Assembly: GCA_027064085.1 (NCBI GenBank)
Contig: JAMOQH010000177.1
Coordinates: forward strand, 1 to 27,463
Source: a bacterium
Lineage (GTDB): Bacteria; UBP6; JAFGXH01
Direction of reading: 5' to 3'
DNA: 27,463 nucleotides
This document shows, in pieces, positions 2,616 to 27,396 of this stretch. Position numbers and translations under genes: made by a program. How positions within the stretch are numbered: the first letter of the stretch is position 1; each line of letters opens with the position of its first letter. The notes beneath the pieces are model-generated. The model did no database searches, was not told the DNA's origin, and was given only the letters and a program-made list of their open reading frames with translations.

Positions 2616-2672
2616 ATTATAACATCTAATCATTTATAGCATTAACTTGCTATTATAATTGTGAGGGATAGA

Positions 2673-5468
2673 ATGAAATGTTTTAAATGTGGTACATTAA
2701 TAGATAGTGATACAACAAACTGCCCTAATTGTGGCCAGAATCTTCGTAAAATAAAGAAAGGCTTTTCTCCAAATATGTACAATAAAATAAAGTCCATCTC
2801 TTCTAATAAATCTCAAAAATCAATTCCAATGGATATATCTATTGGGGACAGTATATCCGAACAATATATAATTCACGAATATTTAAATGATGATTTAATT
2901 TTCTATTCTTTTATTGGTATAGATAGTTTCAATAAACAAAAAGTTCAAATTGATTTTATAAAGCCAACTCTTTTAAAAACAGAGTATGACAAGTCCCAAT
3001 TTATTAACTCTTTAAGAGAAGAAAAGTTTAGACAACATGAAAACTTAGCTATCATTTATGATTATGGTAAACACAATAGTAATTATTATATAGTTTCTGA
3101 ATACATTGAAGGAATTACACTTAGAGAAATAATTGACACTAAGCAAGAAAATTTTACACTTGATGAAATTGAGCCAATTATTGCACAAATAACAGATGCC
3201 CTAACAGATATACATGAAGATAGTTTAGTTGGCTATTTAATACCTGAAAATATCATTATCATGAAAAATATTCTAAAAATAAGAAATACTTTTTGGTTTA
3301 GATGTTTTAACCATAAAACAGTTTTAAAATATTTTTCATCTGATTCACCATCTTATCATTATTTAGCACCAGAGTTACGAGGTGGCTCCCCCAAGCTAAT
3401 TAATGCTACTGATTTGTATTCAATAGGTGTTATTTTATCTTCTTTACTAGTGGGTAAAATATACAAAGGTGTTCCATTTAATCTTAGTGAATATAATAAT
3501 AGCTTACCAACTGATATAGATATGCTATTTTTAAAGCTTGTACATAAAAATGCAAATAAAAGGTTTCAAAATGTAGAGAATTTCTTAATTTATTTTGATA
3601 AATTATTTTCTTTTACTCCAATTGATCACAATGAGACTACAAGAGTAGTTAATACATCTGACATATTATCTATAGAAGAAGAAAACTTTGACTTTGAAGA
3701 TGAAATGGAAACATCTATGATAGATAGAAGTCATACCCAAAATGTTATAACCAAATTTGATGATGATGAACCAGAAACAACGGTTATGCCTAAAAAAGAA
3801 ACTTCCTCTGTTCCAGCCAAGGAAAAGAAAGAAACTTTTGAAGAAGACGAACCGGAAACAAAGGTTATACCTAAAAAGAAAAAAAAGCCTATAAAATCAC
3901 AAAAGCCTCACTCTCTAAAAGCTAAAACAGAAGAAGTTCTAGAAAAACAAGAGGAAAAAGAGAAAAAAGATTCAAATACTTCTTTTAATTCTTACAAAAA
4001 TCCTTTTTATCAACCAGAAGAAATAAAAAAAGAACAAGAAAACTTTCAACAACAAAAAGAATTTCAAGAATATCAAAAGTCAGTATATCAACAACTATCA
4101 GATTTTCAGGAAAGAGATAATAAAAAGAATCTGTTAATGATAGTAGGATTTTTTGCATTTGCATTAATTATAATTGTATTAATTTTAGTTATGTTTTTAA
4201 GGCCCAACAACACAGTTTCTTCTAATGATGCTAAATTAATGGCAACAATAAAAAAACAAAATGAAATGATAGATAAAATGAATAAAAAATTTGATGCTTT
4301 AGAAAGGCAAAAACAAAAAAGTAAAGAAGAGGTTTTACTTGCCAAAAAAGAAAGAGAAAAAAAAGAAAATGAATTAATAGAACAAGAAAAGAAAATAAAA
4401 GAACTTGATAATAAAAAAATAGAAAAGTCTAATGAAAAAGAAAAGAAAAAGCTTGAAGAAGAAAAAAAAGCTGCTCAACTAGAAAAAGAAAAATTACAAA
4501 AAGAATTAGAAGCAAAAAAGAAAAAAGAAGAAGAAAAAAAGAAAAAACAAAAAGAGTTAAAAGCAAAACTAAAAACAGAACAAGAACTTTTAGCAAAAAA
4601 GAAAAGAGAAGCACAAAATAAAAAAGCTCAACAAAGTAGATTAATAAAAAATAAAAATCTAAGTAAAAAATTAGAAGAAGCAAAGAAAAGGGAAGCCCTC
4701 AAATTAGCAAAGAAAAAGAAGGCTGAAAAATTGGCAAAGAAGAGAGAAGCAGAAAAGTTAGCAAAGAAAAAAGAGCAAGAGCGTCTTGCAAAAAAGAAAG
4801 AAGAAAAAAAGAAACTTGAACAATCTAAAAAGAAAAAAAGTTTAGATGCTGAAGCAGATGCTTTATTAGCAGCTGCAATGGAAGAAAATAAAAAAGAAAC
4901 TGTTGTAAAAAAAGATGGAAAATGCCCAAAAGGGATGATAAAAATAAAAGAAGGCAGTTTTAAATATGGTAGTCCTGCATCTGACCCAACAAGAGGGCCA
5001 TCAGATCCATTACTAAAAACAATAAACTTGAATACTTATTGCATTGATAGATATGAATCCAAAGGACCTATTAGTTTTACACAAGCAGAAGCAAGATGTA
5101 AAAGAAAGAAAAAAAGAATTTGTACAACTCAAGAATGGGAAAAAGCTTGCAAAGGTAAGTACAATAGAAAGTTTCCTTATGGAAATAAATTTAATGCAAG
5201 TAAATGTAATACTGCTGATGCGGATGGTGAACCAAGAAAATATAAAAGAACAGGCTCATTTAAAAAATGTAGATCTCCTTATGGTTTATATGATATGAGT
5301 GGAAACTTATCAGAATGGACCAAAAGCGGAAACTCTTCAAGGCAGATTTTAAAAGGTGGTAGCTATAAGTCTGAAGATTTTGATGCAAAATGTTCTAGTG
5401 TAAAAAAAGCATCTAAAGGGAGCCGTAAATCTACTTATGGATACCGTTGTTGCAGTAATTTAGAATAA
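2673..5468 (+). CDS. Transmembrane pseudokinase with zinc ribbon, coiled coil and FGE-sulfatase-like domain
   Basis: The start is placed at ATG 2673, behind GAGGG (2663-2667), rather than the in-frame GTG at 2661 that contains this ribosome site. That gives 931 residues. Domains are: a zinc ribbon (C3, C6, C17, C20); a protein-kinase fold (about 57-310); an acidic/basic linker; a TM helix (about 487-509); a Lys/Glu-rich coiled coil (about 515-745, TolA-like); and an FGE-sulfatase domain (about 751-931) with YGLYDMSGNLSEWT, KGGSY and YGYRCC. The kinase looks dead: the beta3 Lys position is Asp94, HRDLKPEN has become VGYLIPEN, and DFG has become about NTF at 205-207, while YLAPE is kept at 230-234. 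The last domain has ten Cys, consistent with a periplasmic, disulfide-bonded state. It lacks the Cys-rich active-site segment expected of true FGE, so a binding role is more likely than sulfatase activation. Confidence 0.85.
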   Translation: MKCFKCGTLIDSDTTNCPNCGQNLRKIKKGFSPNMYNKIKSISSNKSQKSIPMDISIGDSISEQYIIHEYLNDDLIFYSFIGIDSFNKQKVQIDFIKPTLLKTEYDKSQFINSLREEKFRQHENLAIIYDYGKHNSNYYIVSEYIEGITLREIIDTKQENFTLDEIEPIIAQITDALTDIHEDSLVGYLIPENIIIMKNILKIRNTFWFRCFNHKTVLKYFSSDSPSYHYLAPELRGGSPKLINATDLYSIGVILSSLLVGKIYKGVPFNLSEYNNSLPTDIDMLFLKLVHKNANKRFQNVENFLIYFDKLFSFTPIDHNETTRVVNTSDILSIEEENFDFEDEMETSMIDRSHTQNVITKFDDDEPETTVMPKKETSSVPAKEKKETFEEDEPETKVIPKKKKKPIKSQKPHSLKAKTEEVLEKQEEKEKKDSNTSFNSYKNPFYQPEEIKKEQENFQQQKEFQEYQKSVYQQLSDFQERDNKKNLLMIVGFFAFALIIIVLILVMFLRPNNTVSSNDAKLMATIKKQNEMIDKMNKKFDALERQKQKSKEEVLLAKKEREKKENELIEQEKKIKELDNKKIEKSNEKEKKKLEEEKKAAQLEKEKLQKELEAKKKKEEEKKKKQKELKAKLKTEQELLAKKKREAQNKKAQQSRLIKNKNLSKKLEEAKKREALKLAKKKKAEKLAKKREAEKLAKKKEQERLAKKKEEKKKLEQSKKKKSLDAEADALLAAAMEENKKETVVKKDGKCPKGMIKIKEGSFKYGSPASDPTRGPSDPLLKTINLNTYCIDRYESKGPISFTQAEARCKRKKKRICTTQEWEKACKGKYNRKFPYGNKFNASKCNTADADGEPRKYKRTGSFKKCRSPYGLYDMSGNLSEWTKSGNSSRQILKGGSYKSEDFDAKCSSVKKASKGSRKSTYGYRCCSNLE

Positions 5469-22239: not shown

Positions 22240-22294
22240 AAAAACTAGTAATTCAAGTTAAAATATAGTATAAAGTTCTTTTTTGGAGAATAAA

Positions 22295-22768
22295 ATGGAA
22301 AATATAGTAAAAAAAGGTGATAAAATTAAAGTTCACTATACAGGTAAATTTGAAGATGGAACAATTTTTGATTCATCAGAGGCTTGTCATCATCATCATG
22401 AAGAAGGTCACCATCATCATCATAGTCATGAACCACTTGAAGTTGAAGTTGGAGCAGGATATGTAATACCAGGTTTTGATAATGCTTTAGTTGGAATGAA
22501 AATAGGTGATAAAAAAACTGTTACAATCACTCCAGAAGAAGGCTATGGGCAACCAATAGAGCAAATGGTAATAAAAGTTAAAAAAGAACAATTTCCAGCA
22601 GAACCAATTCCTGCAATAGGAATGGATTTAGAATTAAGTGGACAAGATGGTTCTGTTATTCCTGCAACAATTACCCATATAGAAGGTGATGATGTTACCA
22701 TCGATGCCAATCATCCACTAGCAGGAAAAACACTTATCTTTGACTTAACATTAGTTGAAATTCAATAA
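22295..22768 (+). CDS. slyD: SlyD-type FKBP peptidyl-prolyl isomerase with internal His cluster
   Basis: The start is placed at ATG 22295, behind GGAG (22285-22288); an in-frame TTG at 22283 overlaps that site. The 157-residue protein joins an FKBP core (IKVHYTGKFEDGTIFDSS, VIPGFDNALVGMKIGDKK, EEGYGQ) to an IF chaperone insert, and ends in the SlyD signature DANHPLAGKTLIFDL. It catalyses proline cis-trans isomerisation and acts as a folding helper in the cytoplasm. Unusually, ten His fall within residues 32-45, in the loop between the first strands of the FKBP core, where E. coli SlyD instead has a C-terminal His/Cys-rich tail. Cys31 adjoins the cluster. Nickel or zinc binding is likely. Confidence 0.9.
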   Translation: MENIVKKGDKIKVHYTGKFEDGTIFDSSEACHHHHEEGHHHHHSHEPLEVEVGAGYVIPGFDNALVGMKIGDKKTVTITPEEGYGQPIEQMVIKVKKEQFPAEPIPAIGMDLELSGQDGSVIPATITHIEGDDVTIDANHPLAGKTLIFDLTLVEIQ

Positions 22769-22942: not shown

Positions 22943-25531
22943 TTATTTAATTCTTAATAAACTAGCTGGAACTAATTTTTTGAGTGTTGACCATTTAAGA
23001 TAAGCATTTTCTGAGCCACGGCTACTATCATAGTTACTATAAGGAATCCATGCGAAATCAGGATGTTCATCATCTTGTCCCCATACTCCATTACCAATTA
23101 TATTACCCTTTTTATCTGTTGTAAGAGTATAAGAATAATCTTTTGTTTCTGAAGAATCCTTTAATTCTCCGGCAAAATCTTCTGCATAAGAATCAGATGC
23201 CATGTAAAGAGTAAAAGCTATTTCAAAAGTTCTTTTTGAAGGAGTTTCAAATCCTACGGAAATATGATTTTTAATTTTTTTAAATTTTGTTTTAGTAATA
23301 TATTTAACATTCATTATATCTTCAATTTTTTGAAAAGGTCCATTGTGTTCTCTGTATGCAATAATATTTTCTGCAGTTGTCTTACCTACACCATTTAAAG
23401 AATCTAGTTCTTTTGCACTAGCAGTGTTAATGTTAACTTTATCACTTACAAAAGTATCTCCTGTTGTTTCTAAAATTGTAAAATCATATCCATAAACAGG
23501 GAAATTCCAAACCTGGCTTCCAGCATAAGTATCAAATACAAATGGAATCTGTCTGTCTCTTAGGTAAATAGACACTAGTTTATGAAATGAAGATGGTACC
23601 AAATCTTTAATTTTATCATGGTCATTTTCCCGGTCATTATATCTTGAACCATAAAAATGAGATGCTCCACTATAAAAACTTTCTGTTAATAAACCTTTTA
23701 AATCACCTATATCAAAAGTTATTGTTTCTCCATCTATTAATTCTTTTTCTACTTTACCACCCTCTAATGTGGCAGGGTCTCTTACAAAAATAGTTGCACC
23801 ACTCCAACCATTACAGTGCCCCCACCATCCTGTTCCAACCATAGGATGATATGAATTTAATATTTCCCATGCGACAATTAGAAATGGATTTTTAACAATA
23901 TAAGAACTAGGTTGTGTATAATGATACCAAATAGCATATTTCATCATTGGAGATTGTTTATCTAAATCAAAAGACCATATTTCTGTATCATTTTCATCAT
24001 AACCAATAATTTTACCATCATGAATTTGAATAGGCCCTTCGTTGTCTTTGTGCATATCTGTTTTCAAAATAGTAAAAAACTTACTCATTGCCTTTGTCAT
24101 TTCACTTCTAAGCTCATTTCTTTTTGTTCTTATTTCTGAAGTTGCATCACCATTTTGAATGTCTTGATAAAGCGCATCTGCTTGAGACGCTAGCCTTTGA
24201 GTTTCTTCACATAAAGTTTCTTCATTATTTTCAGGAGTAACTAGTTTATCATCTTTTACTATTAAATTCATTAATGAATTATCACAACTCATACTTTCAT
24301 CAACATTAATTTTTTCATCTTTTAAAGGGTGGTCATATTTTTTATTAAAAATAATTTCATTTTTAGCATCATGGCTTTCATCGCCAGCATAACCATAAGC
24401 TAAACTTGCTGTATCAAGAGGCCAATAAGAACCACTCCAGGGTAAATACTCATCTGGAACCCTAACTGATGTTTCTGCAATTCCTTCATTTTCTTTAAGG
24501 TCTTCTAAAATTTTATCAGAGAGCTTCAACCTTTTTCCTAAATTAACAGCTTGCATTAATTTACTTTTAAAATTATCATTAGGAGTATTTAGTTTTACAG
24601 TTCTTCTTTTTGTTTTTCTTAACCTTTTAACTTCATCTCTAGTCATTAAAGTTGATTTCATTTTAGAAGTAATGGTTTCTTTTGCCCAAACACCATTATC
24701 ATCCCATTTTTGTAAAATAGAAGTTCCATCTAATTTATTAGTATAATTAACTTCTATCGAGTTATTACTGTAAGTTGATTTAAAAGGAGAGCCATCTTCA
24801 AGTTTTATATCTTGATTTTCTTTTTTAAGTGGAAAGGAAGGCATATAACTAGGAAGAGCAAACATTGAAGTTGTAGATAAGAAATTAGCCTTCTGACTTG
24901 GGTCATCTAAATCATAAGCCTCACTTGTTCTTTTACAACTTGTATCACTTTCAATAATATTGCCATTTTCATCTAATCTACAGTTTTGATATTGAAAATA
25001 AACAGCACCAACAATTCTTCCTAAATCTTCTCTAATTATTAAATAAATTGCAGGTTTAACTGCATCTAAACTATCATCATCACTTTGAATATCATCAGCA
25101 AGTTCACCTTTAATTATAGTCAAAAATGACTTTTTACCATTTAAGTTGGCATATTTATATAGTTCATCACCTTCTTGAGGCATCAAACCACTGTTAACGA
25201 CTTTATACTTTAAATAAAAATCACCACTCCATTCAGAAACAACTTCGTCTTTAAGTTCTCCATCATCAGTTTTCGTAGCTGCTTTTTTTAGTTCGTCTGT
25301 AGTAAGAGCAACTGTGTCTCTTCTATTGAGAGTTCTAATTTGTTGTTTAATATAGAAAGTATTAGTATCTACATTATTCATATCCCACTTAGGTTTAACA
25401 TAGTTATCTGAATTAAACTCAATAGGTAAAACATTATCTTCATTTTCAGTATCATTGTTTGCATTGCTATCACCACAACTAAACATTAATACTACCAAGA
25501 GAGAGAGCAAGATAATTAAAGATTTTTTCAT
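22943..25531 (-). CDS. GP42/Pep-13-type transglutaminase lipoprotein with inserted helix-hairpin-helix
   Basis: This 862-residue lipoprotein (signal ends MFSC, Cys19, Gly at +2) has an N-terminal half of unknown fold with several beta segments. From about 368 it follows the oomycete transglutaminase-elicitor family: LPWSGSYWPLDTASLAYGYA, then GTGWWGHCNGWSGAT with Cys573, FHKLVS with His650, FVFDTYAG with Asp667, and VWNFPVYGYDF at 674, close to the Pep-13 core VWNQPVRGF. HPDFAWIP and a YLKWSTLKKL tail close the domain. A ComEA-like HhH (about 697-760; INTASAKELDSLNGVGKTTAENII) is inserted between the last two parts. The predicted activity is Gln-Lys cross-linking, or proteolysis by a related Cys-His-Asp triad, at the cell surface. 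GAGGTG is the ribosome site. Confidence 0.8.
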   Translation of the reverse strand: MKKSLIILLSLLVVLMFSCGDSNANNDTENEDNVLPIEFNSDNYVKPKWDMNNVDTNTFYIKQQIRTLNRRDTVALTTDELKKAATKTDDGELKDEVVSEWSGDFYLKYKVVNSGLMPQEGDELYKYANLNGKKSFLTIIKGELADDIQSDDDSLDAVKPAIYLIIREDLGRIVGAVYFQYQNCRLDENGNIIESDTSCKRTSEAYDLDDPSQKANFLSTTSMFALPSYMPSFPLKKENQDIKLEDGSPFKSTYSNNSIEVNYTNKLDGTSILQKWDDNGVWAKETITSKMKSTLMTRDEVKRLRKTKRRTVKLNTPNDNFKSKLMQAVNLGKRLKLSDKILEDLKENEGIAETSVRVPDEYLPWSGSYWPLDTASLAYGYAGDESHDAKNEIIFNKKYDHPLKDEKINVDESMSCDNSLMNLIVKDDKLVTPENNEETLCEETQRLASQADALYQDIQNGDATSEIRTKRNELRSEMTKAMSKFFTILKTDMHKDNEGPIQIHDGKIIGYDENDTEIWSFDLDKQSPMMKYAIWYHYTQPSSYIVKNPFLIVAWEILNSYHPMVGTGWWGHCNGWSGATIFVRDPATLEGGKVEKELIDGETITFDIGDLKGLLTESFYSGASHFYGSRYNDRENDHDKIKDLVPSSFHKLVSIYLRDRQIPFVFDTYAGSQVWNFPVYGYDFTILETTGDTFVSDKVNINTASAKELDSLNGVGKTTAENIIAYREHNGPFQKIEDIMNVKYITKTKFKKIKNHISVGFETPSKRTFEIAFTLYMASDSYAEDFAGELKDSSETKDYSYTLTTDKKGNIIGNGVWGQDDEHPDFAWIPYSNYDSSRGSENAYLKWSTLKKLVPASLLRIK

Positions 25532-25716: not shown

Positions 25717-27396
25717 TTATTTATTTAATATCTTTTCAGTAACTTTTACATCATCAATGTAAATATACCCATCTCCTGCACCCTCATCATCAGATAACCT
25801 GATACCAACTCTCATAGTTTTAATAGTATCAATTTGCTCATCAGGAACTTTTGAATATATATCCCATGAATCAGGATAAGTATATTCCTTCCATTCATTA
25901 GTATTTGTAGTATAACCATTTGTCATTCCAGTCATTCCATTAGAATGCCCTGTTTCATCATAAAATTTAAAATAAATTCTGGCCTTTACATTAACATCAT
26001 TATCATAAAGTTTCATACTAATATTATATTGTTTTGTATTATCTATAGTAAAAGCAGGTGAAAGAAACTCATTTTTTTTACCACTTGTATTAACACTAGA
26101 ATCAACTTTTTTTACTTTTGCAGAAAAGCTACCTTCAAAAACAGTACTTGATTCCTTATTGGAGGTTGTTCCAGCCTCATTATTATATTCAAAAATCCAA
26201 CCATTAGCTTCGGTACCTGATAACCAATCTTCCAAATCACCATTTGGAACTAAATTAGTCCCTTCATGATTTACACATAAATGGTCTTCACAAGTTTGTG
26301 TACTGATACAATCAGCTTCAGTTTCACACATTCCTTCTTTTAGTTTACAACTAGGATTTCCCTCTAGCATTCTGCATTCTTGAAAATCTTCACAAACAGG
26401 ATCACAAATTAATTCTTTTAAAGAAATATCTCCTGCTTCACGAGGTATTAATTTAAATTTATCATGATTAAATGTTAAAACACCCTGAACATTAGTTAAA
26501 ATGTCATCTTTTACTAAATCTAAATTATATATTGAATCAAATAAGAAAAAAGGAGTACCCGATTTGTCTTCTATAGTATAATTATGGTTAGTCACATCAT
26601 TTACAGGAGGAGCTTTCACCACAACAAAATCCGGATTATCAAGTTTAATTAACATTGATTCAAAGTTTTCTAGTGTTTTAACTCCCGAACCAATAACTTT
26701 AAATTCAGGTAAATCATTATTTGACGAATCAGTAGTAATGTCAAGATTAACAGTATTATCAGGATTTTCCTCATCTACAAAATATGTCAACTCGTTTAAA
26801 CCATAGTAAATTTTATAAACACCTATAACAGTAACTTTATCTCCTACTTTCTGTGCAGTAAAACTATCGTTACCCAAATTCTGATATACATAAATTCCTC
26901 TATCGCTTTCATCTTGCATAAAAAAGCCATCATCATCAATAGCAGTAACTATACCATGTGTAGTATAGGTATTCCCTTCTATTCCCATGTCTTTTATTTG
27001 CCTTATTGTAACAGTTTGGTTATTATTATCAGCAACACATTGATGTACTGAACTGCAAACAGGTTTTTCTCCTGAACAATCATTACTTGTTGCACACATT
27101 CCCGTTTTAGTTTCACAAACACCAGAACTACAAATTTGATAACTATCATCACAACTAGGATTACAAGTTAAATCTTTTGCAACACATTCATTTGCATCAC
27201 AAATAGGCTTATCATCAGAACAATCATTATCATCTTTACACATACCCGTTTTTAATTCACATTCTGCATTCTCATTACATGACTCATAAGCCTTACACTC
27301 TGGAGTACAAGTATTTTTACTAGAACTTGCATCATCACTACATGCTGTGAATAAACCCAATATTACCGATAAAATAATAAACCAAAATTTTTTCAT
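25717..27396 (-). CDS. Cys-rich, OB-fold surface lipoprotein with C-terminal jelly-roll-like domain
   Basis: This 559-residue protein has a lipoprotein signal ending FTAC (Cys19; Ser at +2). Cys-rich modules at about 30-71, 78-120 and 331-374 repeat a pattern of CxPxC....C and GMC...NDC...KPxC, as in EGF-like stalks of deltaproteobacterial lipoproteins. Between them, about 128-327, lie OB-fold-like modules (THGIVTAIDDDGFFMQDES, VGDKVTVIGVYKIYYG) of the type attached to extracellular nucleases. The C-terminal 380-555 begins NLVPNGDLEDW and ends GYIYIDDVKVTE, typical of CBM-like jelly rolls that bind glycans. There is no catalytic domain. GGGAG precedes the ATG. It is likely a surface binding or adhesion protein, with the disulfides formed after export. 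Confidence 0.78.
   Translation of the reverse strand: MKKFWFIILSVILGLFTACSDDASSSKNTCTPECKAYESCNENAECELKTGMCKDDNDCSDDKPICDANECVAKDLTCNPSCDDSYQICSSGVCETKTGMCATSNDCSGEKPVCSSVHQCVADNNNQTVTIRQIKDMGIEGNTYTTHGIVTAIDDDGFFMQDESDRGIYVYQNLGNDSFTAQKVGDKVTVIGVYKIYYGLNELTYFVDEENPDNTVNLDITTDSSNNDLPEFKVIGSGVKTLENFESMLIKLDNPDFVVVKAPPVNDVTNHNYTIEDKSGTPFFLFDSIYNLDLVKDDILTNVQGVLTFNHDKFKLIPREAGDISLKELICDPVCEDFQECRMLEGNPSCKLKEGMCETEADCISTQTCEDHLCVNHEGTNLVPNGDLEDWLSGTEANGWIFEYNNEAGTTSNKESSTVFEGSFSAKVKKVDSSVNTSGKKNEFLSPAFTIDNTKQYNISMKLYDNDVNVKARIYFKFYDETGHSNGMTGMTNGYTTNTNEWKEYTYPDSWDIYSKVPDEQIDTIKTMRVGIRLSDDEGAGDGYIYIDDVKVTEKILNK

Follow-up and report, generated by a model that had tools for sequence, protein, structure and literature searches.

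The gene discussed here raises the question of what a nucleic-acid-binding-type HhH module is doing within a transglutaminase-like domain that is predicted to lie at the bacterial surface. The gene occupies positions 22943-25531 on the reverse strand of the window, a stretch of 27,463 nucleotides that is one complete contig of a draft genome (3.65 Mb in 195 contigs). According to the open reading frame list it begins with ATG, and it encodes a predicted lipoprotein of 862 amino acids. As a member of the TGase_elicitor family (PF16683) the protein is ordinary, but on the evidence of its sequence the domain arrangement is real and unusual. Our preferred reading, to which we give a probability of about 45%, is a lipid-anchored acyl-transferase or cross-linking enzyme of the GHCNG type with an HhH graft that possibly binds extracellular DNA.

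The proposal of an earlier note that this is a surface lipoprotein is supported, as regards the lipoprotein, by the predicted leader. The N-terminus, MKKSLIILLSLLVVLMFSC, is of the lipoprotein type by pattern, with a signal peptide and lipobox (LMFS-C19; 25475..25531, reverse strand, as are all features of the gene given below) that place the Cys near residue 20. Lipid anchoring and exposure at the surface are both probable. By a crude lipobox test about half of 74 PF16683 members start in the same way, and a lipoprotein context is ordinary among the bacterial members. Another predicted lipoprotein, with Cys-rich repeats, is encoded on the same strand (25717-27396), 185 bases upstream, and is a possible partner; by eye it has an OB-like stretch, and its match to CBM_4_9 is below threshold. 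Also in the window are an FKBP-type prolyl isomerase with a histidine-rich HHHHEEGHHHHHSH (22283-22768, forward strand), for which SlyD-like metal binding is possible, and a protein (2661-5468, forward strand) that looks, by eye only, like a kinase-type domain joined to a coiled coil rich in K/E and to a sulfatase-modifying-enzyme-like domain at the C-terminus.

The relation to the GP42/Pep-13 transglutaminase that had been proposed from a few motifs is upheld by both Pfam and alignment to the solved GP42. The match to PF16683 (E 2.4e-21, 76.4 bits against a curated cut-off of 25 bits) falls in two collinear stretches flanking a match to HHH_3. The first spans residues 568-687 (23471..23830; profile 117-239), or 23468-23830 (profile 117-240) as located by a genome profile search, which puts the second (profile 259-355) at 22970..23251. 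Phytophthora sojae GP42 (3tw5) was recovered by phmmer and by a profile of the relatives, which had it as its only match in the PDB (1.8e-76). The motifs lie at the residues originally quoted and in the same order: GHCNGW with Cys573 (23813-23815), SFHKLV with His650 (23582-23584), FVFDTYAG with Asp667 (23531-23533), the Pep-13-equivalent strand VWNFPVYGYDF with Asn676 (residues 674-684; 23480..23512), aligned to VWNQPVRGFKV of 3tw5, and HPDFAWIP (residues 823-830; 23042-23065), aligned to HPDFLWLP of 3tw5. Cys573 aligns with the mutated nucleophile position of 3tw5. The window contains a single GHCNG-coding pattern, and 0 of 100 shuffles contain one.

The N-terminal half, described earlier as long and unknown, proved to be only partly so. 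Residues of about 20-355 (24467..25474) are orphan: with residues 21-360 as the query there were no matches in 385 other genomes and nothing above cut-off in Pfam. Part of the remainder carries family motifs: LPWSGSYWP (363-371) and SPMMKY (527-532; 23936..23953) align with the N-terminal region of other members. The homology begins at PWSGSYWP (364-371; 24419..24442), which corresponds to SPWAGPYWP of 3tw5 and PWSGxYWP of the family, and SPMMKY is the counterpart of the family SPxEKYD; in the family alignments a large insert separates the two. AlphaFold models made without relatives were unusable for both segments modelled, with a mean pLDDT of 34 for residues 546-862 and 42 for residues 21-360.

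That a ComEA-type HhH splits the catalytic domain was also read correctly. The (HhH)2 domain (residues 697-757; 23261..23443) matches HHH_3 (E 6.9e-21, 74.6 bits against a cut-off of 27) and the NCBIfam ComEA HhH repeat TIGR00426 (E 1.9e-19, 69.5 bits against 53.1). It stands in place of a loop of roughly 20 residues directly after the Pep-13 strand, where relatives have a short element (e.g. EISAQDALSLIRVGGTSWPFNAAASKFYLV) leading to the next strand, and family homology restarts after it at FETPSKRTFEI, matching FNPxAKxxxxV of the relatives. The spacing from Asn676 to Trp828 of the HPDFxW motif is 152 residues, whereas in 73 relatives the median is 96 and none exceeds 124; at the level of sequence the insertion is therefore real. 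None of these 73 aligned relatives has an HhH. In the phylum where PF16683 is most abundant, 56 genomes were compared, and none of the listed PF16683 matches coincided with one to HHH_3. Strong HHH_3 matches in those genomes were mostly in open reading frames of about 800-900 amino acids, which we read as Tex from their size and HHH content. The genome-contig scan for relatives yielded HhH-matched loci only. The combination, which had been thought new, was found neither among the relatives nor in the literature searched. Only a single occurrence was found, and the gene is absent from both other genomes of its bacterial family, which weakens our preferred explanation.

The HhH segment has a pI of 9.3 whereas the other segments range from 4.6 to 5.2, making it a basic insert in an acidic protein. 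Its first hairpin, NGVGKTTAENII, has an intact GVG, while the second has YIT instead of the GIG that most HhH of the same lineage retain. DNA binding should not be assumed given a second hairpin without GxG, and the loss of GIG may have weakened it. Such a change would be in line with the HhH being a structural or protein-contact spacer in an active family enzyme, its nucleic-acid binding lost; the insertion site, a variable loop in all relatives, fits with this as well. However, the first hairpin is intact and the domain is still basic, and we consider the spacer somewhat unlikely, though a serious candidate.

The predicted active site was assessed from an alignment of the 74 PF16683 members. 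Cys573 and His650 are each kept in 72 of 74, Asp667 in 71 (two have Glu), Asp610 (23702-23704) in 71 (three have Glu), Trp675 in 72 and Asn676 in 70. The 862-residue protein retains all six, with Cys573 in the context W-x-G-x-C, and the His650-Asp667 spacing is 16-17 in every aligned member, which together argue against a decayed gene. For GP42 a review describes an active site in which the His directly following the Cys (the "CH" motif) is paired with Asn or Asp (PMC10318531). The protein studied here has Asn after Cys573 and His before it, and this replacement of the published catalytic His weakens the acyl-transferase reading. At the position after the Cys, 34 of the 74 members have His, 29 have Asn and 10 have Asp; the CH histidine of GP42 varies across the family, and the histidine that the family shares is His650. 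Which of the two is the catalytic base is not decided by conservation alone.

This variability bears on whether the protein is a transglutaminase at all. The family belongs to the papain-like superfamily (PMC10318531), and its name might reflect GP42 only, in which case the protein would be a peptidase, a deamidase or a pseudoenzyme. The H/N/D variation after the Cys and the existence of Cys-less members (L142, L159) are in keeping with such chemistry, but the retention of every near-invariant residue makes it unlikely for this protein. In the phylum rich in PF16683 (L086-L163) the active-site variants include GHCNG, GICHG, GHCHG and GLCDA, besides the two Cys-less proteins. In a quick maximum-likelihood tree 38 rows, including a Vibrio protein, form a CH clade that is set apart from the rest with support of 97; GP42 was left out of the tree, its CH motif being taken from the alignment and the review (PMC10318531). 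The 862-residue protein falls outside the CH clade; its branch is long, and the members closest to it by path are of the GHCNG type. Of the claim that it is oomycete-like, membership of the GP42 family therefore stands, while placement on the oomycete and Vibrio side does not.

The source of the HhH was probably a different exported HhH protein of this lineage. The nearest copies come from the same bacterial family, where they occur in an exported MBL-fold/HhH protein and in exported tandem-HhH proteins. Within the same genome the closest belongs to an MBL-fold protein with predicted export (G000:C75, L177; 65% identity over 43 residues), making a domestic origin plausible. That HhH is of the same type; unlike the insert, it has an intact second hairpin and is the C-terminal part of a protein with a ComEC-like MBL fold. 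The genome and those of its family-mates encode several predicted exported ComEA-type HhH proteins (G000:C75, C101 (L175) and C127 (L166)), and exported architectures in the lineage comprise MBL-fold with HhH, tandem HhH, and HhH with an unknown domain. Horizontal transfer, suggested by the raw GC of the gene (0.30, against 0.26 for the window), was dropped since the GC3 agrees with that of the neighbouring genes. In every segment of the gene GC3 is 0.10-0.16, and given this agreement with the neighbours the insert looks resident, neither foreign nor chimeric. An assembly or recombination artefact joining an HhH piece in frame to a TGase gene is highly improbable: a draft of 195 contigs and a single occurrence would allow it, but the reading frame is kept across both junctions, the family alignment picks up again immediately past the insert, base composition at third positions is uniform, and the genome has no near-identical donor copy of the HhH.

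Under our preferred reading of a lipid-anchored GHCNG-type enzyme, the protein would belong to the GP42-like papain-fold transglutaminases and reside in the envelope or at the surface. Cys573 would be the nucleophile, with His650, Asp667 and Asn676 as its best-conserved partners, for a Cys-dependent acyl transfer on extracellular proteins, either Gln-Lys cross-linking or hydrolysis/deamidation. Such activity is most likely retained and may depend on Ca. From its place in the loop that follows the Pep-13 strand, the grafted (HhH)2 would put a basic patch, possibly for DNA binding or protein contact, beside the substrate side of an acidic enzyme, and this patch may localise the enzyme to extracellular DNA or matrix. 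The more specific idea of a DNA-targeted or DNA-switched transglutaminase gluing proteins onto an eDNA matrix is decidedly unlikely. With a nucleic-acid-binding-type module placed in a predicted extracellular enzyme of the papain fold, the idea that DNA guides protein modification at a bacterial surface becomes directly testable. As the histidine assigned to the active site of GP42 is not family-wide, the catalytic mechanism of the class can be addressed by mutagenesis.

Homologues of GP42 have been reported from oomycetes and Vibrio only (PMC4915311). The range of PF16683 is wider. Only 4 of 386 broadly drawn genomes have a match above cut-off, as do none of the 27 other genomes of the phylum of the window, and no member was found in the viral contigs and phages scanned, but in one bacterial phylum the family is widespread (52 of 58 genomes, with up to 12 matches per genome). 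GP42-like proteins are thus a large bacterial family.

Among known proteins, P. sojae GP42 (3TW5), the source of Pep-13, is in the same Pfam family and aligns with the 862-residue protein at the Cys, the DxKAL Asp, the FH His, the FxxD Asp, VWN and HPDFxW. It has CH rather than CN preceded by His, and has neither the HhH nor the orphan N-terminal region. A plasmid protein of Vibrio owensii (L085, WP_233902700.1) likewise shares PF16683 and all core motifs; it belongs to the CH branch and has a C-terminal ricin-type lectin domain as opposed to an internal HhH, indicating that added binding modules do occur in PF16683, at a terminus rather than internally. The GHCNG-type lipoproteins of the 58-genome phylum (e.g. 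L093, L098 and L105) have the same signature and often a lipobox, with about 28-33% identity over the core. They have a conserved Cys pair that the 862-residue protein lacks, and are shorter (about 500 amino acids), with a short loop at the HhH site and a C-terminal extension of their own.
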